Positions 1 through 25,646 of a DNA stretch of 28,171 bases are shown in pieces. The notes under the pieces were generated by a model that saw only the letters and a program-made list of their open reading frames with translations, did not search any database and had not been told where the DNA came from. The first letter of the stretch is position 1, and each line of letters opens with the position of its first letter. Source of the stretch: a virus; the IMG/VR virus record IMGVR_UViG_3300025840_000188, positions 1 through 28,171 of that record, one strand, 5' to 3'. A program made the translations under genes and the position numbers.

Positions 1-185
1 GCATCAAGTGCACGCTGATCAGTAAAGTAAAGGTTGGTGATGCCCTCTGCTACATCGTCAGTCTCTAGGGCATCTGCATGTGCTACAGCGGCAGCAGAGG
101 CAGAAGCAATAACTCCTGCTGTAGCATTAAGTGCACGTTGATCAGTAAAGTAAAGGTTGGTGATGCCCTCTGCTAAATCATCTGT
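1..185 (-). repeat. Two direct copies of a 62-bp coding repeat in the tail-fibre gene
   Basis: Bases 1-62 and 124-185 are nearly identical and lie in the same frame, 123 bp (41 codons) apart. Each encodes the fibre motif around EGITNLYFTDQRAL. The first copy touches the window edge, so more units may follow outside. Confidence 0.85.
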
Positions 186-2078
186 TTTCTTAGCTGAGAA
201 CGTGGTATCAAAATCTACTAAGTCGTAGTATGTAGATCCGTCATTGGTAAATTGCCATACATCAGATGTTTCATTCCACTTGATATATACATTTGATGCG
301 CTACCTCTTTGTACCTCAATACCAGCATCTAGAAGTGGTGCAGAAGCACTAGAATTAAGGGTAACAATATTATCTTCAATCAAAAGTTCTGTAGTATTTA
401 CATAAGTAACAGAACCACTTACTGTTAGATTTCCTACTACAGTTAAATCATTTGAAATTGTTACGTCATCAGGGAGTCCAACGGTATAAATATTGCTAGC
501 AGAAGTTACTTCTACTTCATTTGTTGTACCTTGAACATCTGCAACAGCACCGACAACGTTAAAGCTTAGAGAATTAGCATTGTCATCATAGTCAATAGTT
601 AGATTGGTCTGTGTTCCATTAGAAATCATGGTAGCGATAGCGTCCTGTGCTCGCTCATCAAAACTTTCATTCATCCACAATGAGGATGCAGAATTGTAAA
701 TTGCTATGTCACCATCAGACAAACTTGTTAGCTTTACATCTGCTTCTTCACCAAATTTATGAGAGTTTATCATTCTGGCATAAATTCGACCACTATTTTG
801 ATGTTCTCTAAGAACAATGGCAACGGGTGTGCGAATATCTGGTGCTTCTCCTGCACTTGCAGACAATGTTCCTGCAGAAGCAGAGTTAGGATAAAGAGTT
901 GTTCCAACAGGCCAGCCTTGGGTATTTACATTAGTAATTGTTCCATTAATAACAACAAGTCCTGTTTCTGAACCGTTTTCAATATTTTGTGCAGCAAAAC
1001 CAATCATATATTCTGGATCTACAGATCCATCTGTTACTGCCTTAGCAATAGTAATTCTTTCCCCTTGAGCACCTGTTGCCATAACAAAAGAACCCTTGGG
1101 AATGTCTACACCACTATTATTTTTTGTTGGCGGCATAAATAATTTCATGCCTATAGAATGAAGAACGTCGTCACTCATTCCAAGATCTAGGGTGTTTTCC
1201 TCTGAATTCCAATATAATGTTCCAGGTGATACAGCAGAGGGGCTAGCAGATACATCAAAGTTAATACCACTAATATCAAAGGTGCTATCTGTATCTCTAG
1301 AAACTAGAGCAGAGGCGGTATTTAGTGGAGTAGCATTAGTAGAAATATCAATGGTATTAGATCCAGAACCAGATACTAATATACCGTTGCTTTCTGAAAT
1401 AGTTAGAGTATCGTTATAAACGGTTGCTACTGGATCAGTCCCTGAAGGCAAATCAATAGTAACAAAAGCTTCTGTTACTGCTTCTACAGCAGTTTCAAAG
1501 TCTGTAATATTTGAGGCAACGTGATTATGTGAGTTATCTGCAATAGAAGTAGAAATATTTATACTTGCAAGATTTGTTACTGTGGCACTTCCTGAAACAT
1601 CACCAGATAGTACAACATCAAAATTATTAATATCAAAGTCTAAAGTATTATCAACATCGTCATATGTAACAGAAATTCCATTTTCAATATTAGAAGTTAC
1701 CATATTCCCAACAGTATCTGCTACTGCTTCAGCAAAATCTGTAATAGTAGACGACGTATGATTATGAGAGTCATCCTGAATAACTACTGTAACGCTAGCA
1801 CTTGAAAGGTTTTGTATAGTTGTGCTACCAGAGGCATCACCAACAAGAGTTATGTTAAAATCTTGTACATCAAAGTTTAATATATTGCTAGTGTCATCAT
1901 ATGTTACTGATATGCCATTTTCTGTATTCTCATTGACCATATCACCGACAGTATCGGCAATAATTTCTCCCAAGTTATTGTCAATATCCTCTGCTAAAGA
2001 CTGAATATCTCCAGCGAAGTCTACTGGATCTGTATCCTGTGGATAAGGGAATCCATAATTATTTGTGGTTAATGCCAT
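1..2078 (-). CDS. Phage tail fibre / tail-tip structural protein (3' end outside window)
   Basis: The reading frame opens at an ATG at 2078 and stays open for about 692 codons to the left edge, so the C-terminus is missing. The protein is rich in Ser, Thr, Asn, Asp and Val, as phage fibres made of beta repeats are. It carries two copies of a unit of about 78 residues (ENGISVTYDD, then DxSHNHxxS, then ITDF), and near the left edge two copies of the fibre motif EGITNLYFTDQRALNA, close to the widespread EGxTNLYYTDxR motif of tail fibres. A module with GTTNEV and VGLPDDVTI is shared with the protein at 11119-11934. It likely forms a host-contacting fibre. Which phage structural family it belongs to cannot be fixed without alignment. 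Confidence 0.85.
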   Translation of the reverse strand, partial: MALTTNNYGFPYPQDTDPVDFAGDIQSLAEDIDNNLGEIIADTVGDMVNENTENGISVTYDDTSNILNFDVQDFNITLVGDASGSTTIQNLSSASVTVVIQDDSHNHTSSTITDFAEAVADTVGNMVTSNIENGISVTYDDVDNTLDFDINNFDVVLSGDVSGSATVTNLASINISTSIADNSHNHVASNITDFETAVEAVTEAFVTIDLPSGTDPVATVYNDTLTISESNGILVSGSGSNTIDISTNATPLNTASALVSRDTDSTFDISGINFDVSASPSAVSPGTLYWNSEENTLDLGMSDDVLHSIGMKLFMPPTKNNSGVDIPKGSFVMATGAQGERITIAKAVTDGSVDPEYMIGFAAQNIENGSETGLVVINGTITNVNTQGWPVGTTLYPNSASAGTLSASAGEAPDIRTPVAIVLREHQNSGRIYARMINSHKFGEEADVKLTSLSDGDIAIYNSASSLWMNESFDERAQDAIATMISNGTQTNLTIDYDDNANSLSFNVVGAVADVQGTTNEVEVTSASNIYTVGLPDDVTISNDLTVVGNLTVSGSVTYVNTTELLIEDNIVTLNSSASAPLLDAGIEVQRGSASNVYIKWNETSDVWQFTNDGSTYYDLVDFDTTFSAKKTDDLAEGITNLYFTDQRALNATAGVIASASAAAVAHADALETDDVAEGITNLYFTDQRALD
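1491..1924 (-). repeat. Diverged 78-codon tandem repeat in the tail-fibre gene
   Basis: On the minus strand the coding units starting near 1924 and 1690 are 234 bp apart and encode parallel segments: ENGISVTYDD, NxLxFD, GDxSGSxT, DxSHNHxxS and ITDF. The second unit loses similarity towards 1491. DNA identity is moderate, which points to an old duplication. Confidence 0.7.
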
Positions 2079-2397: not shown

Positions 2398-3063
2398 CTA
2401 CTTTCTACTATTTATGTGGTTCACTTCTAAATAATTTATGTTCACATGGCTTGGCAACTCAGATATCCAATATATTATTTCAGCCATATCTTTACCCGTT
2501 ATTGCAGACTCCCTTTTTTCTCCTTCTACCGTGTCTATGGTTCCTGGACATAATTCAACTATCTTTATTCCATATTGTGGATATTCAAGCCTCATCGTAT
2601 CTACTAGGCCACCTATACCTCTTTTTGCATTTGTATAATTGCCACCTCCTGGATAGGCAAATTTTCCACCGAGGGACGATACAAAAATTATTGTTGCATT
2701 ATCAGACTTTTCCATATTGTTTGTAAATAGTTTAGAAAGATACATCGGTCCACTTACATTTAAACTATATGCATAATTAAAGTTTTCTGGCCTTTCATTT
2801 ATTATTTGTGTTGGGCTTGCTCCCCCACCAGCATTATTAACAAGGAGGTCTAACTTTATATCTTTATATTTTTCAAAAAATTTTTCTATTTCTTGAAAAT
2901 TGGTTATGTCCATTTTATATGTCTCTATATTTTCAGACTGTAGAGGAATCATTTTATCTATATTTCTAGAGACAGCTATTACCCTGTATCCATTTTCAGA
3001 TAGAAATTTGCAGGTTTGATAGCCAACCCCTTTGCTTGCCCCTGTTACAATAGCAGTTTTCAT
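2398..3063 (-). CDS. Short-chain dehydrogenase/reductase (SDR family)
   Basis: A 221-residue classical SDR. The Rossmann motif TGASKGVG is at residues 7-14, NNAG at 76-79, the catalytic Ser at about 129-130, and YxxxK with Tyr143 and Lys147. The family uses NAD(P)H to reduce or oxidise carbonyl and hydroxyl groups; the substrate is unknown. Its ATG overlaps the stop of the oxygenase gene before it (TAATG), so it is the last gene of the coupled cassette 2398-8423. SDR enzymes are common in sugar and lipid modification, which fits a cassette that alters a phage or host surface molecule, but this is inference. Confidence 0.9.
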   Translation of the reverse strand: MKTAIVTGASKGVGYQTCKFLSENGYRVIAVSRNIDKMIPLQSENIETYKMDITNFQEIEKFFEKYKDIKLDLLVNNAGGGASPTQIINERPENFNYAYSLNVSGPMYLSKLFTNNMEKSDNATIIFVSSLGGKFAYPGGGNYTNAKRGIGGLVDTMRLEYPQYGIKIVELCPGTIDTVEGEKRESAITGKDMAEIIYWISELPSHVNINYLEVNHINSRK

Positions 3064-3746
3064 TAGCTACGATATTCTTTAACATGATCGGGGTTATATG
3101 GATCATAACCCTCAACAAATATAAATGAGGTTGACATATATTTTTCACCAGAGATTATTGGGTGCGATTGATGAAAGTACGGATAGGTTGATGGAAATAT
3201 TATTGCAGATCCAGGTTCTGGCTTTACCCAAAAATCTATAGCAGGGTCTTGTATATTTGTTGTGGGCCTTCTCTCATCTTCATTAATTGCGAAAGATATT
3301 TGACCACCCCTATAATTATCATTGAAGTACATTACGATAGAATACATCAGGCTTCTATCTCCATCTAAACCATCATAATGTGGTCCAAGATTTCCACCCC
3401 TTGTATATTTGCACATGTCAAGGAATGGAGATATGTTTGGCTCAATGTCTAGTTCCCTATCTTTTACAAAAGAGTAGCATATTCTTTCTACGCCTTGCCT
3501 CATTGTCTCTATTACCTCAGAAACTAGCCGATTGTCTACAGAGTCCTTATTACGATAGTAGAGATCTTTTTTTTCACCGAAGCAATCTTCATTATTATTG
3601 CTGGCAAGCCATGGGTACCACTTTGTTATCGCTGAGTATGTTTGCTCATCATCATCTAATGAGTTTAACGAATCTATTATCCATTGAGGGTTTTCAAATA
3701 CATTTGTATAATAATAAACATTTTCATGAAGCCTTGTTAGTTCCAT
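3063..3746 (-). CDS. Fe(II)/2-oxoglutarate oxygenase, prolyl-4-hydroxylase-like
   Basis: A 227-residue protein with the double-stranded beta-helix core. Iron ligands are visible as His123-x-Asp125 (PHYDG) and His195; the 2-oxoglutarate-binding basic residue is Lys202 in SGEKYM. The segment MYFNDNYRGGQISF is typical of P4H-like enzymes (YLNDxxxGGE). Such enzymes hydroxylate proline or other residues using O2 and 2-oxoglutarate. It is one of four homologues in this cassette. Start and stop overlap its neighbours by TAATG, which indicates one transcript. The true substrate is unknown. Confidence 0.88.
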   Translation of the reverse strand: MELTRLHENVYYYTNVFENPQWIIDSLNSLDDDEQTYSAITKWYPWLASNNNEDCFGEKKDLYYRNKDSVDNRLVSEVIETMRQGVERICYSFVKDRELDIEPNISPFLDMCKYTRGGNLGPHYDGLDGDRSLMYSIVMYFNDNYRGGQISFAINEDERRPTTNIQDPAIDFWVKPEPGSAIIFPSTYPYFHQSHPIISGEKYMSTSFIFVEGYDPYNPDHVKEYRS

Positions 3747-4477
3747 TACGATACTTCACCCATCTTATATTTTCTACCTTGCTGATCTATTTTATATCCT
3801 TTTTTCAAAAGACTCTGCCACTCTTCTTTTTCTACCCTTTGCTGCTCTCTGGTCTTTTCCATTTCCTCTTTCCAACTCTCTTTTAATTCTTCTGGATACG
3901 CTGATTCATCTCTATCATCCCAAAAAGATCCGATTGTATATCTTACGCCAGACTTTAGTAATGTTACTTCATGCATATTTTCAAAGCTTCCAGAAAATGA
4001 AGCAAGTAGTCCAGTTTTAGGGGGTATTTCTATATTTTGCTTTACAAATCTTAAAATGCCGCCATCAAAATCATCATTTAAATATAAAAAGGAGGCATAT
4101 CTGCTTCTTTCGAATGCTCCAAAATTACCCATTTCGTCAGTATTATCTGAATGTGGCCTAGCATAAGCTCCTGGCTCCCATTTTTGAGTATGGAATCCTA
4201 TTTTAAATATGGTTTCTACTTCTAGATCATGTACCTCTGCAACAGTTTTTTTCATTTTGTCTTCTAAAATTTCAAAATAATTAGAAGGCAAATCAAGTTT
4301 TTCTAGCTCCTTGTCTTCTTTTGGCAAAGAAGAAGAGTATGATTCATAAAAAGATATTGGCATCCACTCCATCTTTTCGGATTCCGCTTGATTGTCTAGA
4401 AACTTTATGACAGAATCACACTCTCTCTTGGAGATAAAATTATCATATGTGATAATGTCTTTTGTATATCTATGCAT
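3746..4477 (-). CDS. Fe(II)/2-oxoglutarate oxygenase, prolyl-4-hydroxylase-like
   Basis: A 243-residue protein. The ATG at 4477 is chosen because AAGGAG lies seven bases upstream; an in-frame TTG at 4483 has no proper spacing. The core shows His109-x-Asp111 (RPHSDN), His169 (NMHEV) and Arg179 (SGVRYTIG), with FLYLNDDFDGGIL between them. The C-terminal 40 residues are charged and helical (KEEMEKTREQQRVEKEEW), an extension the sister enzymes lack. The sequence is clearly diverged from the other three oxygenases, so they probably act on different targets. Confidence 0.88.
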   Translation of the reverse strand: MHRYTKDIITYDNFISKRECDSVIKFLDNQAESEKMEWMPISFYESYSSSLPKEDKELEKLDLPSNYFEILEDKMKKTVAEVHDLEVETIFKIGFHTQKWEPGAYARPHSDNTDEMGNFGAFERSRYASFLYLNDDFDGGILRFVKQNIEIPPKTGLLASFSGSFENMHEVTLLKSGVRYTIGSFWDDRDESAYPEELKESWKEEMEKTREQQRVEKEEWQSLLKKGYKIDQQGRKYKMGEVS

Positions 4478-5132
4478 CTCCAAGCTCCTTTATTGTCCAA
4501 AAAAACGGACAGGTAAATCTAACTCCACTCTTTATTTCTGTAACTCCATGTATATAATTCATATCTCCAGGGAAGAAATAAGCAGCACCACGCTTCGGTT
4601 TAAACTGAATACCTTGTTTAGGAAAATAAAGCTCGCCGCCCTCATAGTCATCATTTAAATAAAATAGGCTGGCTAGATCATAATATGGAAAATCATTTGG
4701 CTTCCCCGCGTTTTCTCCTTCGTGCAACTCTTTATCTGCATGTGGGTGTTGATATTGACCTGGCAACCATTTAACTATGGTTGGTCCAGTTGCTTGTATT
4801 TTTACATTAAAATGTTCTTCAACTGGAACCTTTAATCTATCCATCATTTTTGTAATCATCAGAGGTATTTGTGGATTTACAGATCTTAAAGTTTCAAAAG
4901 TAGCAACCCTGTCTTTCCAATATTCTGACTCATATATCACAACGCCGTCCTCATCATAATGTGTTTCTGTTTGATCCCAGGTTGTGAGATTTTTAGCAAA
5001 GTTTGATAACGTGTCTAATTCTTTTTCTGTCATAAAGTTTTCTAGCTCAACAATATTGCTTGCGTCCATACCAAAATACCCAGAGGGTGTTATAGATACT
5101 GGTTTTTGTAAATTTTGAGGATTGGTAATCAT
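4470..5132 (-). CDS. Fe(II)/2-oxoglutarate oxygenase, prolyl-4-hydroxylase-like
   Basis: A 220-residue protein. The ATG at 5132 is preferred: AAGG precedes it and it lies just after the upstream stop, whereas the longer frame from a TTG at 5171 would overlap that gene. Iron ligands His131-x-Asp133 (HPHADKE) and His195 (YIHGV), and Arg205 (SGVRF) for 2-oxoglutarate, are all present, with LFYLNDDYEGGELYF between them. It resembles the 3746-4477 product most closely (PKxGxxxxF, SGVR endings). It overlaps the next gene by 8 bases. Confidence 0.88.
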   Translation of the reverse strand: MITNPQNLQKPVSITPSGYFGMDASNIVELENFMTEKELDTLSNFAKNLTTWDQTETHYDEDGVVIYESEYWKDRVATFETLRSVNPQIPLMITKMMDRLKVPVEEHFNVKIQATGPTIVKWLPGQYQHPHADKELHEGENAGKPNDFPYYDLASLFYLNDDYEGGELYFPKQGIQFKPKRGAAYFFPGDMNYIHGVTEIKSGVRFTCPFFWTIKELGDA

Positions 5133-5146
5133 GACAAAATTGTACC

Positions 5147-5914
5147 TTATTTGTAAGATCTTCTCTTCCAAATTTTATTCTTATACACCCCACCATTTTT
5201 TACTCTAAATCTAAGGGTGTTAATCATATTTTTTGTGTACATTCTTTCTGGGTTTTCTATTTTTATGTCTGATGACCAGTTTTCTCTTTTGAATGGAAAA
5301 AGCTGAGAATACGGTGTTCCAGCAGGCAAAACTCCAGTCCACCCTTTAAATAGAAAGAACGGAATGGTTCCAGCAATAAGCACCTTATCACTATCAACCA
5401 CACCACTTGTAGTAATAAATGGAAGATCAAACCTGTTCATAGGGTGTGTGTACAAAACACTATACCCTTCTGGTACAGTCACGGCCCAATTCATCCACCA
5501 AGCAAAATGGTTGTCATCGTACCCCATGGGGGTTACAAACTGGGGCATTGGAGATCTTTCATCAATAAAGTCTTTGTTTTGTTTATCTAAAACTTTGGCT
5601 CTAATCCTATTATTGTCGTAATAAAATTCTATGTCACAAGGCGTTCTTAAAACGTAGCCTGAAGACATAACATCTAACAATGCAGGACACGACTTCCATG
5701 TAGGTATTTTCCCACCATCTTGTGGATCAATATATGGCTTATTTGTTTGTGGATCAATCGCATATATGTCTGCATCTTTATACCACTTAGGAATCGTTTT
5801 TACGGAAGAAACTGGACATGACGGATGATTTTCTGTTAGATGATGCCTATTAGATGTAAAGATTATGCTTTTATCATTCACTTTTTGTTGTAAGCTTGAT
5901 TGTTCTTGATTCAT
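5147..5914 (-). CDS. DUF6065-like protein (paralogue of the next upstream gene)
   Basis: A 255-residue cytosolic-looking protein. The middle (about 95-205) has the order WAVTVPEGYSVLYTHPMNR, SGVVDSD, IPFFLF, LPAGTPYSQLFPF. This matches in order the segments of the 5874-6569 product and resembles my recollection of DUF6065, a family of unknown function. The N-terminus has WYKDAD and SCPALLD. The gene overlaps the upstream one by 41 bases. No catalytic motif is recognised. Presence beside the oxygenases suggests a shared pathway. Confidence 0.55.
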   Translation of the reverse strand: MNQEQSSLQQKVNDKSIIFTSNRHHLTENHPSCPVSSVKTIPKWYKDADIYAIDPQTNKPYIDPQDGGKIPTWKSCPALLDVMSSGYVLRTPCDIEFYYDNNRIRAKVLDKQNKDFIDERSPMPQFVTPMGYDDNHFAWWMNWAVTVPEGYSVLYTHPMNRFDLPFITTSGVVDSDKVLIAGTIPFFLFKGWTGVLPAGTPYSQLFPFKRENWSSDIKIENPERMYTKNMINTLRFRVKNGGVYKNKIWKRRSYK

Positions 5915-6569
5915 GACTTCCCACAGACTCCCCTCTACTATTCTCTGCTTTTCTATAAAGGTTTGTAAATTTTCCTAGTTTGCTAACTTTTTTATAAAAT
6001 TCAAAGTCTTCCTTAACTTGCTCTTTATTAATTGGATAAGGCTTATTTTGTATTTTTACCTCAAACTCTTGCAGAGCACCTAATGATATTGGAACAATGG
6101 TGGCAACAGGCGTACCTGCTGGTATTATTATTTCTACATTGGGCTTTGTTATCCTCCATGCGATAGGAATAGATGACTTAAAAAATGAGGTACTTATTAG
6201 GTTAGTAAAGCATTGAGCATTTTCATTAAATTCATTTGGAACGGGCATTACTAAAGTAGTAACACTTTCTTCTGTTACAACAGTAAGATATGTATTAAAG
6301 CTTATAGTAGCATTGCCTCTAGATGTAAAACAATACTTATTTCCGCTTATTACCTTAACGTGATCTGCGGTTGTATCACAAATTCCGTCCCAAATAAAGG
6401 ATATGTCCTCTGGAAAAGATATTCCCCATCCCAATGAGTTTGCCAGGGATAGGGGCATACATTGATATGCATGTTTGTTTGGCGTTTCATCCATCCATAA
6501 TCTTTTTACTTGTAGCTGTTCTATATTGGCAGATTTATCTATTTCTTTATGAACATGTATTGATCTCAT
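5874..6569 (-). CDS. DUF6065-like protein
   Basis: A 231-residue protein with DUF6065 hallmarks as I remember the family: AYQCMPLSLANSLGW at about 35-49, then ISFIWDG, then a beta-rich core with VMPVPNEF and IPIAWRITKPN, ending IPAGTPVATIVPIS. The family has no established function. The ATG overlaps the upstream oxygenase stop (ATGA), so translation is coupled. The 5147-5914 protein looks like a diverged duplicate. Partnership with the 2-oxoglutarate oxygenases is inferred only from gene order. Confidence 0.7.
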   Translation of the reverse strand: MRSIHVHKEIDKSANIEQLQVKRLWMDETPNKHAYQCMPLSLANSLGWGISFPEDISFIWDGICDTTADHVKVISGNKYCFTSRGNATISFNTYLTVVTEESVTTLVMPVPNEFNENAQCFTNLISTSFFKSSIPIAWRITKPNVEIIIPAGTPVATIVPISLGALQEFEVKIQNKPYPINKEQVKEDFEFYKKVSKLGKFTNLYRKAENSRGESVGSHESRTIKLTTKSE

Positions 6570-7255
6570 GACCCTGTTTCCTGATAAAACTCTGGGCTAT
6601 GGAACTTGTCTGAATAATCAAGCATTGTTACTAGTGAATATTTAGTTCCACTAATTACTGGCATAGCTCTATGAGGATACATAAAGTTTGATGGGAAAAC
6701 AAATAGATCCCCCGCTTCTGGCTTTACCTGTAGGTTTTGTAGTCTAAAAGATATTTCTCCACCTTCATAATTATCATTTAAATAAAGAACAAGAGATACT
6801 GTGCAGTTATATGAATATCCATGGTCGTGATGATATTCAAAGTGCTCTCCAGGGCCGTACTTAACAAGATTCATTGCCTCCCAATATCTAAGCTCCCCGA
6901 TGTTGTAATGTTTGGCATAGTCTTTTACAGGCTGCAACTGTCTATAGTGTAGTTCTGAATATATTTGGTTTATTGTCTGAACACCTGGAATATTTTCTGG
7001 TAATTGACCAGGCTTATATTTAAAGTCATGGCAATCTCTGTATTCAGGCATAAGCTCCTGATATCCCACATATGCTGGCATCCAACTTAGTGATGGGTTC
7101 CATGACCTATCTAAAATTTTTGAAATCTTTTCTACTATTTCATTTCCGTTACTTACAACGTTTTTATATACCCATATTCCATCTTTTAGTTCTTCAGAAT
7201 CTGTCCAAGTTTGTTCTTCAATTTCGTACCATGGACCTTGTGTTATTTTTTCCAT
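6566..7255 (-). CDS. Fe(II)/2-oxoglutarate oxygenase, prolyl-4-hydroxylase-like
   Basis: A 229-residue protein. The ATG at 7255 has GGAG seven bases upstream and is chosen over an in-frame TTG at 7270. Ligands are His142-x-Asp144 (YHHDHG) and His195 (YPHRAM), with Lys205 (SGTKYS) in the 2-oxoglutarate position; LVLYLNDNYEGGEISF lies between. Lys at that position is shared with the 3063-3746 enzyme and with prolyl-4-hydroxylases, while the other two have Arg, so the four split into two pairs. It has its own extended -10 at 7277-7285. Confidence 0.9.
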   Translation of the reverse strand: MEKITQGPWYEIEEQTWTDSEELKDGIWVYKNVVSNGNEIVEKISKILDRSWNPSLSWMPAYVGYQELMPEYRDCHDFKYKPGQLPENIPGVQTINQIYSELHYRQLQPVKDYAKHYNIGELRYWEAMNLVKYGPGEHFEYHHDHGYSYNCTVSLVLYLNDNYEGGEISFRLQNLQVKPEAGDLFVFPSNFMYPHRAMPVISGTKYSLVTMLDYSDKFHSPEFYQETGS

Positions 7256-7276
7256 TAATGCTCCAATCAAAGGAAA

Positions 7277-7285
7277 ATTATATCA
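7277..7285 (-). promoter_or_regulatory. Extended -10 promoter TGATATAAT ahead of the oxygenase gene
   Basis: TGATATAAT on the minus strand ends 21 nt before the ATG at 7255 and overlaps the stop of the preceding gene. It could start a separate transcript for the 7255-2398 part of the cassette. Confidence 0.55.
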
Positions 7286-7885
7286 CAGCAGAATTGGCAT
7301 CCATTTTTGAGGATATTGATCAGGTATTCTACTCAGGGTAGATAGATTAAAGGATATTGCTTTTTCTATATTCCTAAGTTGTATGTCTACTCCCGACTCA
7401 AACACTACTATAGTTCCAATAACTACCTCTGTTTCAGTTGAGTTTATTTTTATGCTAGCATCTTCATTTGCCTGTAGTATCCAGTATCCAGAAAATGAAG
7501 GGGCACCACCTCCACCTGTGTCATATAGTACATCATCTCTAAAAGATTCTTCATACTCAGATGTTAAATAGTACTTATTTTTTACTGTATTAATTTCTCT
7601 CTTACCACTAATTATTGATAACAGAGACACTACCTCTTTAAAACAAAGATACACAGATTCGTTATAAAGCTGAAAATAATTAAAAGATAGGTCGTTAACA
7701 CATGATCTATCATAAACAAAGCTTGCTCTATCTCCACCATTAAAAAGATAAACTTCCTCTTTGCTATTTCTTATAAAATCAATATCTTCTATTACATTTT
7801 TTGGAATAATTTCAGAGGTTAAAACAAGATTGCTGCGCTTTATTTTTTCAAACAAAACACTCTCTTTATGAGCATTAGTTTTCAT
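7283..7885 (-). CDS. Unknown protein, possible cupin/beta-helix fold without iron ligands
   Basis: A 200-residue protein that I do not recognise. The C-terminal half has the rhythm of a cupin or oxygenase jelly-roll: SGYWILQANEDASIKI, then VVIGTIVVFESGVDIQL, then ISFNLSTL. The second piece resembles the DLFVFPSxxxH strand of the neighbouring oxygenases, but no HxD or distal His is present. It may be a catalytically dead relative acting as a partner subunit, or unrelated. A Gly-rich GGGGAPSF loop precedes the jelly-roll. It overlaps the upstream gene by 11 bases. Confidence 0.5.
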   Translation of the reverse strand: MKTNAHKESVLFEKIKRSNLVLTSEIIPKNVIEDIDFIRNSKEEVYLFNGGDRASFVYDRSCVNDLSFNYFQLYNESVYLCFKEVVSLLSIISGKREINTVKNKYYLTSEYEESFRDDVLYDTGGGGAPSFSGYWILQANEDASIKINSTETEVVIGTIVVFESGVDIQLRNIEKAISFNLSTLSRIPDQYPQKWMPILL

Positions 7886-8423
7886 TTTTTATCCTTTTAG
7901 AAATTCTGTTATTTTGCCATGAATAAGGAAATGCTGGATCTCTAGGCATCTCCTCATCTGGATAATCCATCCTACCATTATTTTTTGTTTTTAATTCTTG
8001 ACCAATACCCTTTGTAGCTTTTTGATAAAAAGATTCCATTTTAGTATTTCTGTCGGGGGTAACATCTACATGAATACCAAATGTTCCCCACATAATAACT
8101 CTTGTCATATATCCATACCATGTCCACCACTTTTTACCACGATGTATTGGATTGATACTAGCCCTCTCACCATAATATATTCCATCTTCATTAGGACGGG
8201 AATATACGGAGTATACGTCTGGATACTTATGATACATATACGGAGAAGAAATTACTGTCCCTGCAGGAAAATCTTGATTGTGATACATAGAAATAAAGAA
8301 AGAATGAAGGCCACCACTTTTAAATTTGTGAGTAAATATCCAACTGTCGCCTAACTCTATTGGAAAACATTCAAAGTCTGCAGTAGCGACACCATTATCA
8401 TCCTTTGCTACAAAGCTTGTCAT
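7875..8423 (-). CDS. Hypothetical protein of the oxygenase cassette
   Basis: A 182-residue protein with no family recognised. It is rich in Tyr and Trp (HRGKKWWTWYGYMTR at about 92-106) and has beta-like segments at the N-terminus (GDSWIFTHKF, GLHSFFISMY, FPAGTVISSPYMYH). FPAGTVI echoes the IPAGTP turn of the DUF6065-like proteins, so it could belong to the same fold. The C-terminus is charged and probably disordered. Its ATG overlaps the stop of the Hint-protein gene (ATGA), which links the cassette to the structural genes. Confidence 0.6.
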   Translation of the reverse strand: MTSFVAKDDNGVATADFECFPIELGDSWIFTHKFKSGGLHSFFISMYHNQDFPAGTVISSPYMYHKYPDVYSVYSRPNEDGIYYGERASINPIHRGKKWWTWYGYMTRVIMWGTFGIHVDVTPDRNTKMESFYQKATKGIGQELKTKNNGRMDYPDEEMPRDPAFPYSWQNNRISKRIKNEN

Positions 8424-9346
8424 TCGTAACCGATGTTTTCTATCTCGCGCATGGAATGACTGTCATGTACCAGCATGTGTTCTGTAAAGAACACATCATA
8501 TGGCTCTACGTTAATACAAACTACCTCATGTGGTGATTCTATAAACTCAAGAAGCGTTATCTCTTCAAATGAGGAAGTTTGATATGAATAGATAAGGTCT
8601 GTTTCTACAACATTAAGAACTTCAATAAATTTTGCCTCACCGTCTCTCATTACAAGGATAAAGTGGGTGTCAGAAAATATGTCATCGTTGATTACAATTG
8701 CCCACTCTGTAGTTCTGGTTACTATTCCAACAACTGTTGATTCCTTATAAGTTATTTGTGGATCTTCACTCGTCCAATCAAGTGCCTGTTGATTTGATTC
8801 TTCCGTCCACATATACGGGAATCCTTCAATTTCTGCAGAAATAAGGGTGTCTCCATACTCTAAATCGCCTGCAGCAACAAGACCGTCTGGTGTCCTAATT
8901 AGTGTGTCAACTCCAACGGATTTGTAGAGGTGATGGGGGGGAGGCTTGAAATATGGTGGGAAGAACGGTGGGAAGAACGGTGGGAAGAAAGGGAACGATG
9001 GTGGGAAAAACGGTGGGAAGAAGGGGCCAAAAGATGGTGGGAAGAAAGGGAACGATGGTGGGAAAAACGGTGGGAAGAAGGGTGGGAAGAAAGGAGCAAC
9101 ATATTGATAGTAATTATAGTCAACAGCACCGCCTGGGGTAGTTTGTTCATTTGCTAATGGGTTTTGACTAATAATTTGTTGATCCAAGCTAGTATTTGTT
9201 GTCGTTGTGGATGTTTCTGTGCCAACAACAAGACCAGCTTCATTTAATTTTGTTGCTGCATTTGTTCTAGTTTGTCCAATAATATTTGGAACAAATTTTC
9301 TAATTCCTCTACCGATGGGACCGAATATGTCAGAAAGAAATGCCAT
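8420..9346 (-). CDS. PASTA-like / Phe-Pro-repeat / Hint (intein-like) protein
   Basis: A 308-residue mosaic. Residues about 17-80 look like a PASTA domain (VPNIIGQTRTNAATKLNEAG, with QNPLANEQ later); these usually bind peptidoglycan. Residues 85-138 are almost only Phe and Pro in FFPP and SFPFFPP units. Residues 143-295 form a Hint domain: Ser143 in the first-residue position (SVGVDTLI), RTPDG, GDTLIS, a block-B-like SDTH at 225-228, and the C-terminal FFTEHMLVHDS with His294, Asp295 and Ser296. Canonical inteins have Cys1 or Ser1 and end HN plus Cys/Ser/Thr, so splicing or self-cleavage is possible but not certain. A cell-wall-contacting virion protein that self-processes is the best inference. 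Confidence 0.8.
   Translation of the reverse strand: MAFLSDIFGPIGRGIRKFVPNIIGQTRTNAATKLNEAGLVVGTETSTTTTNTSLDQQIISQNPLANEQTTPGGAVDYNYYQYVAPFFPPFFPPFFPPSFPFFPPSFGPFFPPFFPPSFPFFPPFFPPFFPPYFKPPPHHLYKSVGVDTLIRTPDGLVAAGDLEYGDTLISAEIEGFPYMWTEESNQQALDWTSEDPQITYKESTVVGIVTRTTEWAIVINDDIFSDTHFILVMRDGEAKFIEVLNVVETDLIYSYQTSSFEEITLLEFIESPHEVVCINVEPYDVFFTEHMLVHDSHSMREIENIGYE
8935..9100 (-). repeat. Tandem repeat encoding FFPP / SFPFFPP units
   Basis: The plus strand shows many copies of GGTGGGAAGAA(A/C)GG-type units of 12-15 bp. They encode Phe-Pro repeats in the Hint protein. The repetition makes length change by slippage likely. Confidence 0.9.
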
Positions 9347-9354: not shown

Positions 9355-10107
9355 CTAAAAATTAAGCGAGGCTTGGGCCAAGACTGTCCAAGAGCTTGAC
9401 TGACGGATAAGAGTAAAGCTAAAAATATCAATTTTATTAGCTGTTGGTGTAGGGGTGATGCCTGCAACCCATCGTATAGTTTGTGCTGAACCATTTATAT
9501 TAAAAGCAGATGGGATTCCTCCTGTACTCCCCTGAGTTACAATGATAGTTATATTAATGACTTTATCATTATCTAGTGGAACATTGATTGCATCAATGCT
9601 AAAGTTCGCACTTGGAGAAGAAAGAGATACATTAGCTCCTGTTGCGTAATCAATTGTTAAAGTTCCAGCAGATAATAGTTCTGAAGATAGTGATTCCCTG
9701 ACTGATTGAACATCAAAGTCTCCTGTGACATTAATACTTTCTGTTACATTAAAAGTGCCCGTGACATTAAAATCCCCAGTAACTGTTGAAGTTCCAGTAA
9801 TTGTTGGAGAAGAAAGTGTTGCAGAAGAAAGTGTTTTATTTGTCAATGTTTGAGTGGATGTTGTTCCTACAAGATTACCTGATTCTACTCCGTGCACTCC
9901 AGTTGTCGATGATGCGTGAGTAGAAAGGTCTTGTTCTATCCCAGCAAGGTGGCCTTCCATACCTCCTGGATCACCATTGCCATCATAGTCTGCACCATAA
10001 TGATACTCTGTAAAGGCTTGAATAATGTTGGCAACATCTGTTTGCTCAGGAACACCTACGTCATAGTTTGTAGTAAAGTTATTGGTGTCTGATATATTTT
10101 GTGCCAT
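9355..10107 (-). CDS. Tail fibre / appendage protein
   Basis: A 250-residue protein. The ATG at 10107 has GGAG seven bases upstream; the in-frame GTG at 10119 is that ribosome-binding region itself. The N-terminus has an acidic segment (YGADYDGNGDPGGMEGH). Then comes TSTQTLTNKTL, a motif widespread in phage fibres, and a run of short beta repeats (TVTGDFNVTGTFNVTESINV). The C-terminal 90 residues are a beta-rich cap. Likely a virion appendage; the exact position in the tail is unknown. Confidence 0.75.
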   Translation of the reverse strand: MAQNISDTNNFTTNYDVGVPEQTDVANIIQAFTEYHYGADYDGNGDPGGMEGHLAGIEQDLSTHASSTTGVHGVESGNLVGTTSTQTLTNKTLSSATLSSPTITGTSTVTGDFNVTGTFNVTESINVTGDFDVQSVRESLSSELLSAGTLTIDYATGANVSLSSPSANFSIDAINVPLDNDKVINITIIVTQGSTGGIPSAFNINGSAQTIRWVAGITPTPTANKIDIFSFTLIRQSSSWTVLAQASLNF

Positions 10108-10123
10108 TTTTTTCTCCACTTTT

Positions 10124-10132
10124 ATTATATCA
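10124..10132 (-). promoter_or_regulatory. Extended -10 promoter TGATATAAT
   Basis: TGATATAAT on the minus strand sits just past the stop of the preceding gene and 17 nt before the ATG at 10107, with the SD in between. Confidence 0.6.
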
Positions 10133-10738
10133 TCAAGCGAGCAATGATATTGTTATGTGATGCTTTGCTGATGAATCTGTTAGGTCTAACCATTGTGCAG
10201 ATGCTGAATTATAGTATAAAGAATAAAAATCAACATTTATAAAGTTTGTTATATTATTTACTGATTTTGTTTTAAGACTGGTAACTACAGGAGCGTCTTC
10301 AAATTCAGTAGAGATTTGAATGCTTAGATTATTTTCAGAAATAGAGGTTGCGCTATATTCAGAAAAAGCCTCCGCTATACTAACCCCATATGTATAAATA
10401 CCCCCGCTTGCACTAATATTCCCTACACTAGCACTTAATGATGCAACGTCACTATAAATAGATGGCTTTAGTGAGCCAATTTTTTCCCATTGAAATCCAC
10501 CAGCACCATCAGATAAGTATTGATATAGATATCCTTCTGTCTGTCCCTGGCTTTCTCTAATAAATAAGTCATTTAAAAGAATACTAGCGTCTGGTGGAGC
10601 TACGTTTGGATCATCAAATCCACTAAATATCTGACTACCCCTTTGCCCTGTAGCACCAACATCTAATTGTATATCTATAGTAGCAGGAGGGCCAATGACA
10701 GATATTTCTGGAGTATTTAGCAACACCTCTATGCTCAT
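10133..10738 (-). CDS. Tail/baseplate-associated protein with short collagen-like turn
   Basis: A 201-residue protein. The N-terminus reads PPATIDIQLDVGATGQRG, with a short collagen-like Gly-x-y piece, as in the 11951-12277 product (SGPQGPKGEDG). Then comes a segment typical of fibre linkers (NDLFIRES, GYLYQYLSDGAGGFQWEKIG) and a Ser-rich C-terminal half. The start overlaps the upstream stop (ATGA). Probably structural; no specific family recognised. Confidence 0.65.
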   Translation of the reverse strand: MSIEVLLNTPEISVIGPPATIDIQLDVGATGQRGSQIFSGFDDPNVAPPDASILLNDLFIRESQGQTEGYLYQYLSDGAGGFQWEKIGSLKPSIYSDVASLSASVGNISASGGIYTYGVSIAEAFSEYSATSISENNLSIQISTEFEDAPVVTSLKTKSVNNITNFINVDFYSLYYNSASAQWLDLTDSSAKHHITISLLA

Positions 10739-11094
10739 GTTATTCTACCGCTAATATCATTAGTCACTGTTATTGTTCCTGCAAGTAAGGTATAAACATT
10801 GTCATCATTCTTAATCTCTACGTCATAAACATACGATGTGCCCTGTGCTAAATTCTCACCGTCCTCTGGAGCAATGACACAACTGATATATGATTCTGCA
10901 GAGTTAATTGTTATATCTCCGTTAAAAACAAAAGTATCTGTTCCCCCAGATCGTGATGCTATGGTAAATGTTGCACTTGCAGACAAATAATCTGATAAAT
11001 CAAATGCTGTTCCATCAGCATTTTTGGGCTGAACAACAAACTCAAAAGAGTCTCCACGATAATATGAGAAGTTATAAGTTGCAGGAAAAGCCAT
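10735..11094 (-). CDS. Baseplate/tail Ig-like domain protein (BppU-N-like)
   Basis: A 119-residue all-beta protein. FSYYRGDSFEFVV, DLSDYLSASATFTI and YVYDVEIKNDDNVYTLLAGTITV follow the pattern of small Ig-like domains found at the start of phage upper-baseplate proteins. It parallels the protein at 12277-12618 (QGSTFTRTLTY, DLTGYEARLQV, YVYDLELVV), so the two are paralogues, each followed by a collagen-motif protein gene. The mRNA seems leaderless: the -10 TATAAT ends six bases before the ATG. Confidence 0.65.
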   Translation of the reverse strand: MAFPATYNFSYYRGDSFEFVVQPKNADGTAFDLSDYLSASATFTIASRSGGTDTFVFNGDITINSAESYISCVIAPEDGENLAQGTSYVYDVEIKNDDNVYTLLAGTITVTNDISGRIT

Positions 11095-11100
11095 ATCTAG

Positions 11101-11109
11101 ATTATATCA
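11101..11109 (-). promoter_or_regulatory. Extended -10 promoter TGATATAAT giving a leaderless start
   Basis: TATAAT ends at 11101 and the ATG begins at 11094, so transcription would start on the A of the start codon. There is no SD upstream of this ATG, which agrees with a leaderless transcript. Confidence 0.6.
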
Positions 11110-11118
11110 TGTAGGACT

Positions 11119-11934
11119 TTAGTTTCCTGTATAGTAATATGGTATTTTTATTTCGTTTCCACCAACATCGGCCAAAAGATAGCCATCGGGACCGTTTTGA
11201 AACTCTAAATATGTTGCACTAGCCGCAGATGCTGTATTTAAATTATTATAGTTCAAATATCCATCAACACTTAGGTCACCAGCAATTGTTACATCGTCAG
11301 GTAAGCCAAGGGTGACTGATCCAGCAGAAGCTGAAACATTTACCTCATTAGTTGTACCTGCAAGAGAAGTAACACCTGTATTTGTTACCTCAACAGATGC
11401 TCCCTCTCCTGTTCCTGTAACAGAAATGCCTGCTCCAGCAGTTACATTAGCAACGTAATCACCCGTTGTATCTGTGCCTAATGCAACAGAATCTGCTGCT
11501 ACTGCATTTGCTGTTCCAGCAGTTACAGCATATGTTGCACTTGCTGCTGTTCCTGAAATATCTACTGCTACTGTACTAGGCAAGCCAATAGTTACTGCTC
11601 CAGCAGAAGCAGAAACGGTAACCTCATTGCTTGTTCCTGTTAGGCTTGTAACGCCTGTATTTGCAATAGTGAGTGAATTTCCATCATCATCATAATCAAC
11701 AGAAATTCCTCCACCAGCGGTAATTAGACCATTGATGTAGTCTTCAATCTCTTCTTGTGTATTGCCTACGGTAGTCCAAGATGCTCCGTTGTAAACTTTC
11801 AACTTTGAATCATTTGTGTTGTAGTAAATCTGTCCTGATGCGGGGCTTTCTGGATCAGTAGCAAGATTCTGAATAGCTGCGTTTTGCAGTTCTAATTTGT
11901 TCAGATTGATAGGCGTAAGAAAATTTCTTGCCAT
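11119..11934 (-). CDS. Tail fibre protein with repeated GTSNEVxVSASAGxVTxGLP units
   Basis: A 271-residue protein. The N-terminal part (ARNFLTPINLNKLELQNAAIQN, then SGQIYYNTNDSKLKVYNGASW) is typical of phage fibre N-termini that attach to the tail and contact the shaft. It is followed by two parallel units of the form TGVTSLxGTxNEVxVSASAG, separated by Ala/Thr-rich repeats. The sequence after the second unit (LPDDVTIAGDLSVDG) matches part of the first gene of the window, so fibre modules have been shuffled. An AAGGAAAAGA-type SD lies before the ATG. Confidence 0.85.
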   Translation of the reverse strand: MARNFLTPINLNKLELQNAAIQNLATDPESPASGQIYYNTNDSKLKVYNGASWTTVGNTQEEIEDYINGLITAGGGISVDYDDDGNSLTIANTGVTSLTGTSNEVTVSASAGAVTIGLPSTVAVDISGTAASATYAVTAGTANAVAADSVALGTDTTGDYVANVTAGAGISVTGTGEGASVEVTNTGVTSLAGTTNEVNVSASAGSVTLGLPDDVTIAGDLSVDGYLNYNNLNTASAASATYLEFQNGPDGYLLADVGGNEIKIPYYYTGN

Positions 11935-11950
11935 TATTTATCTTTTCCTT

Positions 11951-12277
11951 TCATGATAAATACGCCTTTCCAGAGAGAGGTACTGAAAAGCTTGCAACCA
12001 CAGTATTTGCATCTGGGTAGTTATATGACCCCTCAACGACTGTTCCTGCTGAATCTACTATAGTTATGCCTGGTATAAATTTAAGTCCGTGTGTTATTGT
12101 CCAAGTATTTGATGCAACAGATTGTGTATGAACATAAGAAAGATCAGCAAATAAAACTTCTCCATCTTCACCTTTTGGACCTTGTGGGCCAGATGTTCCA
12201 AGATCAACGGTAACCTTGTCATCTGTAGTTTCTATAGATGCAACACTTTCTATAATTTCTACAGTAACATCTGCCAT
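11951..12277 (-). CDS. Small tail fibre protein with collagen-like turn
   Basis: A 108-residue protein. SGPQGPKGEDGEV at about 29-41 is a short collagen-like stretch. The C-terminal half (NTWTITHGLKFIPGITIVDS, then TVVASFSVPLSGKAYLS) is a common small fibre-tip module in phages. It overlaps the upstream gene by one base. Pro residues in GPQGPKG could be hydroxylation targets; that is speculation. Confidence 0.7.
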   Translation of the reverse strand: MADVTVEIIESVASIETTDDKVTVDLGTSGPQGPKGEDGEVLFADLSYVHTQSVASNTWTITHGLKFIPGITIVDSAGTVVEGSYNYPDANTVVASFSVPLSGKAYLS

Positions 12278-12618
12278 TACCTAGTCACCTCTGGGGTTAC
12301 AGTAAATTTACCTTCTACTAGTCTTGTTACCGTGCTGCCAACTACTAACTCTAAGTCATAAACATAACTTCCTGGAACTAGATCTTGGGTAGTAGTTGCA
12401 TCAATAACAATGTCAATTGTTCCTGCGCTGCCACCAAGCGTAATGCCATCGTTATCTGTAAGATTAACTACAAAATCATCTGAATAATGATATTCACGAA
12501 CCTGGAGCCTTGCTTCATACCCTGTCAAATCCACAGGGGAGTCATCAATTTTATAAGTAAGAGTACGAGTAAACGTGCTTCCCTGGGGACATAAAAAATT
12601 AGCTTTGCCTGGGGTCAT
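12277..12618 (-). CDS. Baseplate/tail Ig-like domain protein (BppU-N-like)
   Basis: A 113-residue all-beta protein with QGSTFTRTLTYKID, PVDLTGYEARLQVRE and VPGSYVYDLELVVGSTVTRLVEGKFTV, the pattern of small Ig-like tail domains. It is paralogous to the 10735-11094 protein. An AGGAG precedes the ATG, and a TGTTATAAT promoter lies further upstream. Likely a virion part; which complex it joins is unknown. Confidence 0.65.
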   Translation of the reverse strand: MTPGKANFLCPQGSTFTRTLTYKIDDSPVDLTGYEARLQVREYHYSDDFVVNLTDNDGITLGGSAGTIDIVIDATTTQDLVPGSYVYDLELVVGSTVTRLVEGKFTVTPEVTR

Positions 12619-13299: not shown

Positions 13300-13371
13300 T
13301 GGCGTGTGGCGCAATGGCAGCGCAATCGGCTGTTAACCGATGGGTTGTAGGTTCGAATCCTACCACGCCAG
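13300..13371 (+). tRNA. tRNA-Asn (GTT)
   Basis: Acceptor TGGCGTG pairs with CACGCCA. The anticodon stem ATCGG/CCGAT closes loop CTGTTAA (anticodon GTT), and the T-arm is TGTAG-GTTCGAATC-type. The discriminator base is G and CCA is not encoded. Confidence 0.93.
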
Positions 13372-13374
13372 CTA

Positions 13375-13419
13375 GGGGAGGCAGCGACTCCACCCACCAC
13401 CCATCCCCGCTGTCTCCCC
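13375..13419 (+). other. Long hairpin between tRNA-Asn and tRNA-Thr
   Basis: GGGGAGGCAGCG (13375-13386) and CGCTGTCTCCCC (13408-13419) pair with one wobble over 12 bp, around a 21-nt C-rich loop. It fills the space between the tRNAs exactly. It may be a processing signal or an attenuator; no U-tract follows. Confidence 0.6.
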
Positions 13420-13423
13420 GTTC

Positions 13424-13495
13424 GCCTCAATAGCTCAGGGGTAGAGCACTCGCCTTGTAAGCGAGCGGTCAACAGTTCAAATCTGTTTTGAGGCT
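13424..13495 (+). tRNA. tRNA-Thr (TGT)
   Basis: Acceptor GCCTCAA pairs with TTGAGGC. Anticodon loop CTTGTAA gives TGT. The T-loop is TTCAAAT and the discriminator is T; CCA is not encoded. The next gene's SD (AGGAGG) starts right after it. Confidence 0.93.
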
Positions 13496-13506
13496 CAGGA
13501 GGAGAT

Positions 13507-13689
13507 ATGCCAACATATACATATTCCTGCAATAAATGCGGGGTACAAGAAATATATCAATCTATAACTGAAAATAACTTGACAAAGTGCCCCATATGCG
13601 ATAGCATACATTTCAATAAAATATATAATGCTGTTGGAGTACAATTCAAGGGTAAAGGATTTTACTCCACCGACACAAGAAAGAAGTAG
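13507..13689 (+). CDS. FmdB-type zinc-ribbon protein
   Basis: A 60-residue protein with the FmdB signature: PTYTYSCNKCG at the start, KCPICDS in the middle, and VQFKGKGFYSTDTRKK at the end. Two CxxC pairs bind one zinc. FmdB-family proteins are called regulatory, but the molecular role is not established. AGGAGG gives a strong start. It is transcribed together with the flanking tRNAs, so the primary RNA must be cut by tRNA-processing enzymes to free it. Confidence 0.85.
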   Translation: MPTYTYSCNKCGVQEIYQSITENNLTKCPICDSIHFNKIYNAVGVQFKGKGFYSTDTRKK

Positions 13690-13692
13690 GGG

Positions 13693-13887
13693 ATGGATAA
13701 AGAAATATATTACGAAGTAATTACCGCCTTAGAAAAACTCAATGAGGTATATGACCACATTGATAATGCTATGAATATGGCAAAAGCAGGATCTTTTCTT
13801 CAAGACACCCTTCATGTTGCACAACGCAATATTGCAACAACACATATTAAATTAGAAGTTGCTAGAGATCTAACAGAAACTATATAA
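13693..13887 (+). CDS. Small helical protein, unknown
   Basis: A 64-residue protein, all predicted helix (YEVITALEKLNEVYDHIDNA, then LHVAQRNIATTHIKLEVARD). No family recognised. It starts 3 bases after the FmdB stop with GGGG just before it, so it is probably coupled. It lacks Cys, signal peptide and membrane segment; a small dimeric regulator or inhibitor is possible but unsupported. Confidence 0.65.
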   Translation: MDKEIYYEVITALEKLNEVYDHIDNAMNMAKAGSFLQDTLHVAQRNIATTHIKLEVARDLTETI

Positions 13888-13895
13888 TGACACTT

Positions 13896-13968
13896 GCCCT
13901 TGTAGCTCAGAGGATAGAGCGTCGGACTTCTAATCCGTTGGTCGCAGGTTCGACTCCTGCCAAGGGCG
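13896..13968 (+). tRNA. tRNA-Arg (TCT)
   Basis: Acceptor GCCCTTG pairs with CAAGGGC. The anticodon stem CGGA/TCCG closes loop CTTCTAA (anticodon TCT). The T-loop is TTCGACT and the discriminator is G. It reads AGA codons, frequent in AT-rich phage genes. Confidence 0.93.
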
Positions 13969-13972
13969 CGTA

Positions 13973-14427: not shown

Positions 14428-15120
14428 ATGAAAAAAGTATTAGATCATGGATATGTTCGCACAGTAAACACCATGGGTAGTGATTTAGATGTTGTTAATG
14501 CTGCCCGTGCCTCTTTTGATAAAGAAATTCAAGAGTTAGATAGTAGAGATCAAAAGCTTATTGGTTTTCTTGTCAAGCACAAGCATGATTCAGTATTACG
14601 ACATTGTGCCATGACATTTGAAGTCTATGCACCGTTGATGATTGCTAGACAATGGTACAAGCACGCTGTTGCCTCTACTCACCTTGACGATCAAATGGGG
14701 TGGAATGAGTCCTCTCGTAGGTATGTCACAGAAAATGAAGAGTTTTACATCCCTGGCGTTAATCAATGGAGAAGTTCGCCTGAAAATCGCAAGCAGGGCA
14801 GCGGAGAACCCGTAGAAGACTTTCTTGGTGCAAAATATACCAGAAGAATGCAAAAGCTTGTCCAGGAGGCTCACGACCTTTATAGAGAGGCAATGATGGA
14901 TGGTGTTGCTCCAGAGCAGGCACGGCTTCTTCTTCCTGCCTACGCCATGTACGTTAGGTGGCGGTGGACAGCAAGCCTTAACTCACTTCTTCACTTTATA
15001 TCATTACGAATGCACTCAGAAGCACAGTCTGAGATTCAGGCTTATGCAGATGCAGTATTTATAGAGGTGCAACAGGCATTTCCTATTACAACACAAGAAT
15101 GGTTGGCACACAGAGTTTAG
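14428..15120 (+). CDS. thyX: Flavin-dependent thymidylate synthase
   Basis: A 230-residue ThyX. It makes dTMP from dUMP with FAD, NADPH and methylene-tetrahydrofolate, supplying dTTP for phage DNA. Visible motifs: LRHCAMTFEVYAP, ARQWYKH at 73-79, NESSRRY at 93-99, and the C-terminal LLHFISLRMHSEAQSEI that carries the dUMP-activating Arg. The usual RHRxxSxNExSxRY motif is altered: KHAVASTHLDDQMGWNESSR has several extra residues between the His and the NExS part, a variant I have seen in phage ThyX proteins. An AAAGG lies before the ATG. It follows the tmRNA directly and ends overlapping the convergent gene. Confidence 0.93.
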   Translation: MKKVLDHGYVRTVNTMGSDLDVVNAARASFDKEIQELDSRDQKLIGFLVKHKHDSVLRHCAMTFEVYAPLMIARQWYKHAVASTHLDDQMGWNESSRRYVTENEEFYIPGVNQWRSSPENRKQGSGEPVEDFLGAKYTRRMQKLVQEAHDLYREAMMDGVAPEQARLLLPAYAMYVRWRWTASLNSLLHFISLRMHSEAQSEIQAYADAVFIEVQQAFPITTQEWLAHRV

Positions 15121-23418: not shown

Positions 23419-23494
23419 GGCCCTGTAGAGCAGCGGAGTGCTCGCCACCCTGTCACGGTGGAGGTCGTGGGTTCAAATCCCATCAGGGTCGCCA
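23419..23494 (+). tRNA. tRNA-Asp (GTC), CCA encoded
   Basis: Acceptor GGCCCTG pairs with CAGGGTC. Anticodon loop CTGTCAC (GTC). T-loop TTCAAAT, discriminator G and encoded CCA at 23492-23494, unlike the other tRNAs here. Confidence 0.92.
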
Positions 23495-23497
23495 AAA

Positions 23498-23598: not shown

Positions 23599-23602
23599 AC
23601 TC

Positions 23603-23631: not shown

Positions 23632-23660
23632 CATGTCTATTAACTAGTGAAAGGTATGTC

Positions 23661-25640: not shown

Positions 25641-25646
25641 TTCCCC

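Follow-up and report, generated by a model that had tools for sequence, protein, structure and literature searches.

Why would a phage place a set of prolyl-hydroxylase-like enzymes directly after a gene for a protein with a repeat of phenylalanine and proline? The question is raised by a virus record of 28,171 bases (IMG/VR record IMGVR_UViG_3300025840_000188; the whole stretch is hereafter the window), in which a cassette on the minus strand, transcribed from 9346 to 2398, begins with a protein carrying an FFPP repeat (the array) and continues through UNK9, UNK8, OX1, DUFa, DUFb, OX2, OX3, OX4 and SDR, neighbouring genes being -41 to +12 bp apart. OX1 to OX4 belong to the 2-oxoglutarate (2OG) and iron-dependent oxygenases, SDR is a short-chain dehydrogenase, and DUFa and DUFb form a pair of DUF6065 type. 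Many uncultured phages have a putative surface or tail-fibre protein with such an array that is nearly always followed by a prolyl-hydroxylase-like set, a pairing that points to chemical modification of the fibre by the phage itself. The cassette would then be a system dedicated to the post-translational modification of a virion protein (of the tail or a surface fibre), a reading that is given a probability of roughly 0.7.

Linkage of the repeat array and the cassette

IMG/VR contigs were scanned for DNA encoding PFFPPFFP, ignoring the neighbouring genes, and at least 120 stretches were obtained. Array open reading frames (ORFs) with at least 4 kb of downstream sequence were then counted, and cassette genes were scored within 6 kb on the same strand. 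Among the matches listed, 54 of the 62 array ORFs had at least one cassette gene beside them, 52/62 had at least three, and 53/62 had a gene of DUF6065 type; dereplication of these matches left 45/53 with at least one and 43/53 with at least three. When the identical procedure was applied to genes with GPxGPxGP collagen repeats as a control, at least one cassette gene was found for 1/96 and at least three for 0/96 among the matches listed (array versus control, Fisher p about 1e-28). The viruses sampled by this control span a wider range than those of the array set, which gives weight to the converse test and to the exchange of domains around the array.

For the converse test, contigs were found by the DUFa alignment alone and at least 6 kb of upstream sequence was required. 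The initial annotation had named a cassette occurring routinely away from any proline-rich structural protein as the outcome that would speak against it; among the matches listed, an FF(x)PP array lay upstream in 35/35 DUF6065 loci, which represent about 21 DUFa sequence clusters. The narrower FFPP motif did not match 14 of the 35, and eight of these together with locus L409, read by eye, all carry FFAPP or FFSPP arrays, a second repeat type (type II). In the samples searched, array and cassette accompany each other almost one-to-one, whichever of the two is taken as the start.

The array is built of FFPP and FFP units, and the domains around it are exchanged among relatives. The N-terminus of the array protein is Fn3, PASTA or a sequence without a Pfam match, and the C-terminus is a Hint domain (42/104), a Cys-rich tail (26/104) or neither (36/104). 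The conserved element is hence the array, while its surrounding domains change. The codons of the array also differ from those of the cassette: Phe is encoded by TTC in 82% of cases in the arrays of the window and related loci, and by TTC in 19% and TTT in 81% in the cassette genes, with TTTTTT pairs falling from 54% in the cassette genes to 2% in the arrays. Therefore, the repeat appears to be selected as protein, with slippery T runs avoided.

The composition of the cassette is likewise recurrent. The first oxygenase follows the array at a median gap of 96 bp and is of OX1 type in 92/104 loci. The oxygenases number three to 11 per cassette, mostly four to eight and most commonly six, and two DUF6065-type genes are present in 50/62 cassettes. 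DUFb is missing more often with type II arrays (10/21 versus 11/83, p 0.001, uncorrected for relatedness). The SDR is an optional member that occurs also in other cassettes (L054, L076 and L102, for example). Sulfotransferase-like genes lie in or beside the cassette in 23 loci (e.g., L460:831-1538) and AspH-like (aspartyl/asparaginyl hydroxylase-like) genes in 19 (e.g., L011:4570-5178).

Eight dereplicated array loci have no adjoining cassette. On the contigs of two of these (L061, L156), oxygenases and DUFa lie at another place, the contig of L092 has eight oxygenase matches, and L094 shares its contig with L076, which has a cassette. At most one weak oxygenase match was found on the contigs of L155 and L157 (38 and 27 kb), and the short contigs of L080 and L089 gave no match. 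Two loci outside this count, L055 and L129, likewise have both oxygenases and DUFa at another place on the contig; an array standing away from its cassette in L061, L055, L156 and L129 suggests action in trans.

A scan of bacterial genomes for FFPP gave 117 stretches among the matches listed. One, L369 (DUCD01000215.1), from a Verrucomicrobiales metagenome-assembled genome, is a contig of very low coverage that carries a PASTA-FFPP array and the cassette, and it is probably a viral contig binned into that genome. Two further bacterial stretches, L343 and L401, contain several FFP units but lack the appearance of array proteins and were set aside.

Genes of the window and their predicted products

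The initial annotation was made from the window alone. It names an array gene and nine genes for enzymes or unknowns, all of which proved real, on the minus strand at the positions below, which are given in the order of transcription.

9355 to 12618, minus strand: upstream tail and fibre genes, oriented as the cassette (PHROG virion structural, tail and tail-fibre families)
8420 to 9346, minus strand: array protein PASTA-(FFPP)n-Hint, 308 amino acids, the proposed substrate (PASTA, array and Hint evidence)
9122 to 9292, minus strand: PASTA domain, residues 19-75 (Pfam E 2.4e-7)
8951 to 9097, minus strand: FFPP array, 49 residues (22 Pro, 21 Phe), residues 84-132 (read from the sequence)
8423 to 8920, minus strand: Hint (intein-like) domain, Ser143 at the nucleophile position, extent approximate (family profile)
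7875 to 8423, minus strand: UNK9 (relatives L029, L033 and L034, at three other array loci)
7283 to 7885, minus strand: UNK8, which travels with UNK9 (co-occurrence)
6566 to 7270, minus strand: OX1, prolyl-hydroxylase-like 2OG oxygenase (PF13640 E 3e-15)
5874 to 6569, minus strand: DUFa, DUF6065 protein (PF19541 E 5e-28; alignment of 39 sequences)
5147 to 5914, minus strand: DUFb, distant DUF6065 paralogue with a predicted dUTPase-like fold (phrog_7084 E 2e-35)
4470 to 5171, minus strand: OX2, 2OG oxygenase, Arg-type 2OG site (PF13640 E 9e-9)
3746 to 4483, minus strand: OX3, 2OG oxygenase, Arg-type 2OG site (PF13640 E 6e-8)
3063 to 3746, minus strand: OX4, 2OG oxygenase, Lys-type 2OG site (PF13640 E 3e-10)
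2398 to 3063, minus strand: SDR, short-chain dehydrogenase, optional cassette member (PF00106 E 1e-39)
3 to 2078, minus strand: downstream fibre-like gene, truncated by the contig end (PHROG structural matches)

The four oxygenases had been described as diverged with intact iron and 2OG residues, and this holds for all of them. Each exceeds the PF13640 cut-off, OX2 to OX4 share 23-30% identity with OX1, and the HxD...H...K/R residues are present in OX1 (H147, D149, H200, K210), OX2 (H144, D146, H208, R218), OX3 (H111, D113, H171, R181) and OX4 (H123, D125, H192, K202). Relatives keep the HxD...H and 2OG residues in 249/251 (OX1), 186/191 (OX2), 106/111 (OX3) and 161/166 (OX4) cases, so that the catalytic set is retained in about 95-99% of 719 sequences, with the exceptions being mostly gaps. 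By these residues the oxygenases look active. PHROG labels of ‘DNA endonuclease’ and ‘ferrochelatase’ on the oxygenases look like mislabels, as the domain is PF13640, and phmmer matches of OX1 to designed Armadillo proteins are repeat artefacts with about 5 bits per stretch.

Structure models were made for OX1 and DUFb. The OX1 model (predicted local distance difference test score, pLDDT, of 90.5) has 2jig, 3gze, 4iw3, 5c5t and PHD2 as its top folds in Foldseek and VIA-align, and prolyl hydroxylases make up nearly all of its top 50 PDB structures. It aligns with the algal prolyl 4-hydroxylase (P4H) bound to a (Ser-Pro)5 peptide (3gze) at Z 19.7 and 2.3 A over 173 residues, with the Pseudomonas putida P4H bound to EF-Tu (4iw3) at Z 18.9 and with a Chlorella-virus P4H (5c5t) at Z 17.1. 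On the predicted model, OX1 would be prolyl-hydroxylase-like, the fold by itself being no proof of the substrate.

The FFPP repeat of about 50 residues is confirmed as an array of 49. The Hint domain reported beside it is weak when the window protein is taken by itself (Pfam E 0.05) and firm as a family: 26 members match PDB inteins at E 4e-9 (5bkh) and the BIL domain 2lwy at E 7e-9, and many members match Pfam intein and Hint families. The alignment places Cys or Ser at the nucleophile position in most rows, and the C-terminal end is His-Asn in many relatives and His-Asp in the window protein. As a family, the domain is intein-like by its sequence profile and probably self-cleaves. Since little or no sequence lies beyond the domain in most members, splicing is unlikely, and Hint more likely frees or transfers the C-terminus of the array. 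The N-terminal PASTA domain is an addition to the earlier description and possibly binds the cell wall.

The two DUF6065-like paralogues of the initial annotation stand on unequal ground. DUFa is a DUF6065 protein (PF19541, 98.6 bits against a curated cut-off of 26.6), while DUFb is only a distant paralogue, none of 30 members of its family giving a DUF6065 match. The DUFb family nevertheless matches the DUF6065 alignment in a profile-profile comparison (E 1e-5), and on this evidence DUFa and DUFb appear to be distant homologues. A sequence search of the PDB with DUFb gave no match. The predicted model of DUFb (255 amino acids, pLDDT 88.5) matches dUTPases in Foldseek with probability 1.00 (E 1e-3) and aligns in VIA-align with the Plasmodium falciparum dUTPase at Z 10.7 and 2.5 A over 119 residues with 13% identity; the model thus has the dUTPase beta-barrel fold. 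A GxxDxD pattern is invariant in the DUFb family and is the only invariant element that is like one of the five catalytic motifs of dUTPase; from a comparison by eye, we take it to resemble motif 3.

Among 50,697 phage records, no relatives of DUFa were found at E 1e-3, and relatives of DUFb were confined to haloviruses; hence, the full cassette was seen in no isolated phage. In the haloviruses (L048, L049 and 47 further records), thymidylate synthase is followed downstream by a lone DUFb relative, and oxygenases and the array are absent from the two loci read (L048, L049). Three alphaproteobacterial plasmid DUF6065 genes (L486, L487, L488) adjoin repetitive surface proteins in 3/3 cases examined, namely an RTX-like repeat protein, an autotransporter and an outer-membrane-like protein whose C-terminus is collagen-like.

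Pfam and PHROG searches with UNK9 gave no match. A comparison of UNK9 as a further DUF6065 relative gave no clear outcome and the reading was dropped, and UNK8 as a degenerate 2OG oxygenase was rejected, with no profile similarity to the OX1 family. The collagen-like fibres reported nearby were overstated for the window, where gene 11951-12277 contains one short GPQGPKGED stretch; longer GxY stretches do occur in fibre genes downstream of or beside the cassettes of relatives. Elsewhere the window carries six tRNA genes, ThyX and a DUF932-like gene (13300-13969, 14428-15120, 22388-23383, 23419-25800). As the DUF932-like gene and ThyX have their nearest matches in Streptomyces phages such as Yaboi and Faust, and the six tRNA genes also point there, the source is probably a large actinophage, and aquatic Actinomycetota are candidate hosts for phages with the cassette.

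A proposed fibre-modification system and its alternatives

The modification of virion proteins proposed in the initial annotation is supported at the level of sequence by the forward, converse and control tests and by the OX1 model, the whole reading being based on sequence data and predicted models from contigs that are fragments. In the proposed mechanism, the prolyl-hydroxylase-like oxygenases would hydroxylate the prolines of the array (most likely Pro, perhaps Phe too), each paralogue probably having its own position or target, and the DUF6065 pair may support the repeat as an adaptor or scaffold and not act on nucleotides, a role that is assigned with low confidence. Through hydroxylation the strongly hydrophobic repeat would become a stiff rod that is soluble, an analogy being the hydroxyproline-rich filaments (PMC11015965). 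The new hydroxyls could be elaborated by the optional SDR, sulfotransferase or AspH-type enzymes, Hint, where present, would self-cleave and free or transfer the C-terminus of the array, and the modified fibre would be displayed on the virion. A bolder proposal is that of a new virus fibre material, in which (FFPP)n or (FFxPP)n is oxidised at several positions on both Pro and Phe by three to 11 oxygenases with the guidance of dUTPase-fold adaptors and is released or covalently attached by Hint; it is offered tentatively, with the odds somewhat against it. We know of no comparable polymer or enzyme team.

The alternative that survives best is that the enzymes produce or alter a small molecule or a surface sugar, the array gene being a mere neighbour in a tail-fibre module inherited as a block. 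Sugar genes often adjoin phage fibre genes, and SDR and sulfotransferase-like genes are present in some cassettes; however, the array is constant while its flanking domains vary, the cassette is absent from collagen-repeat fibre genes, the recurrent cassette neighbours inspected included no glycosyltransferase family, and the OX1 model is that of a peptidyl-prolyl hydroxylase. The surface sugar that the initial annotation had offered as its second option found no support, and this explanation is unlikely.

The substrate could also be the neighbouring collagen-like fibre in place of the FFPP array, given that many cassettes adjoin fibre genes with collagen-like stretches and that in cyanophages such fibres are followed by 2OG genes. 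This is highly improbable, as the cassette is predicted by FF(x)PP arrays (54/62; 35/35) and not by collagen repeats (1/96). Hypermodification of phage DNA by TET/JBP-like oxygenases with a dUTPase-like protein has in its favour the predicted fold of DUFb with a GxxDxD that recalls motif 3, the thymidylate synthase beside the halovirus relatives, and a weak Tet_JBP match of OX2 (E 4e-4, under the cut-off). The near-perfect linkage to a protein repeat within the tail block, the prolyl hydroxylase as nearest fold of OX1, and the repetitive surface proteins beside all three bacterial DUF6065 genes examined leave it very little room. Hydroxylation of host proteins (e.g., EF-Tu, as by the Pseudomonas P4H, which is among the closest folds of OX1) or alteration of host 2OG metabolism, the role predicted for the cyanophage genes (PMC9602691), leaves the array gene ahead of the cassette, the mostly four to eight enzymes and the conserved order unexplained, and has a slim chance of being correct.

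Several points weigh against fibre modification by the cassette. All scans comprise the matches listed, and hence the percentages come from samples. No cassette was seen on some array contigs (L155, L059, L064 and others), all of which are fragments. The dUTPase-like fold of DUFb is unexpected for protein modification, OX2 to OX4 were assigned by family match and intact residues and may have other targets, and the spacing of prolines in type II arrays differs from that of the FFPP type. Hydroxyproline, enzyme activity and the virion location of the array protein are all deduced from sequence. Tryptic proteomics of virions would tend to miss the modified residues, as Lys and Arg are almost absent from the array.

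Comparison with known systems

No description of the FF(x)PP array with a hydroxylase cassette was found in the literature searched. A search of PubMed Central papers for FFPPFFPP or DUF6065 found none; most subscription papers and preprints lie outside that search, and an unseen description is possible. Prolyl hydroxylation of proline-rich repeats of collagen or extensin type is already known. It is known for a virus as well, from Chlorella virus PBCV-1 (Eriksson, 1999, as cited in PMC9301287), and the viral use of prolyl 4-hydroxylase ‘remains cryptic’ (PMC9301287).

Aquatic phages commonly carry 2OG oxygenases as extra genes; here a candidate substrate is named from the sequence alone. Cyanophage S-SCSM1 has 24 copies of 2OG-Fe(II) oxygenase genes, and such genes were interpreted as host-metabolism genes whose viral function was not specifically investigated (PMC9602691). 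The cyanophage genes (phrog_61) share the oxygenase superfamily with the OX genes of the window, and in S-PRM1 and S-CAM9 they stand directly after a collagen-like fibre, parallel to the position of the cassette. In these Synechococcus phages (S-PRM1, L484 4812-8192; S-CAM9, L485), a GPTGPTG collagen-like tail fibre precedes two 2OG oxygenases and a 614-amino-acid protein that has a 2OG-like match besides its GT_PLOD and Glyco_transf_25 domains. This protein resembles a collagen lysyl hydroxylase/glycosyltransferase, which makes the locus a cultivated parallel to the window cassette. The FF(x)PP array and DUF6065 are absent from the five cyanophage or marine-virus loci examined.

Two components of the cassette have relatives of other kinds. 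Many relatives of the array protein recall Hint and intein-like domains (BIL, Hedgehog Hint, pretoxin-HINT) in a Cys or Ser at the nucleophile position and a C-terminal His-Asn, the window protein having His-Asp, and unlike splicing inteins the array Hint is mostly without downstream sequence. DUFb differs from the dUTPase/dCTP deaminase fold by extra elements, by the 13% identity and by the company of putative protein-modifying enzymes. The cassette gives DUF6065 its first functional context and offers new candidate hydroxylases for repeat proteins.

In hydroxyproline-rich glycoproteins, such as extensins and the Chlamydomonas mastigoneme shaft, long proline repeats within an extracellular filament are modified by P4Hs (PMC11015965). 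Those proteins are eukaryotic and O-glycosylated, whereas Phe makes up about half of the phage array and glycosyltransferases are untypical of the cassette. The collagen-type P4Hs (animal C-P4H, PBCV-1 vCPH and algal P4H) have in common with OX1 the HxD...H, the basic 2OG residue and, as a candidate here, the class of proline-rich repeat substrates; the peptide-bound algal P4H and vCPH are among the best fold matches of OX1. The phage cassette differs in having mostly four to eight paralogues per operon, DUF6065 partners and a Phe-Pro in place of a Gly-X-Y or Ser-Pro repeat, so that the Gly-X-Y substrate of a collagen-modification system gives way to FF(x)PP as the candidate. Animals modify collagen and plants modify their cell-wall proteins, and the modification of phage fibres is suggested as a parallel; if true, phages have for their own fibres a maturation line like that of collagen.

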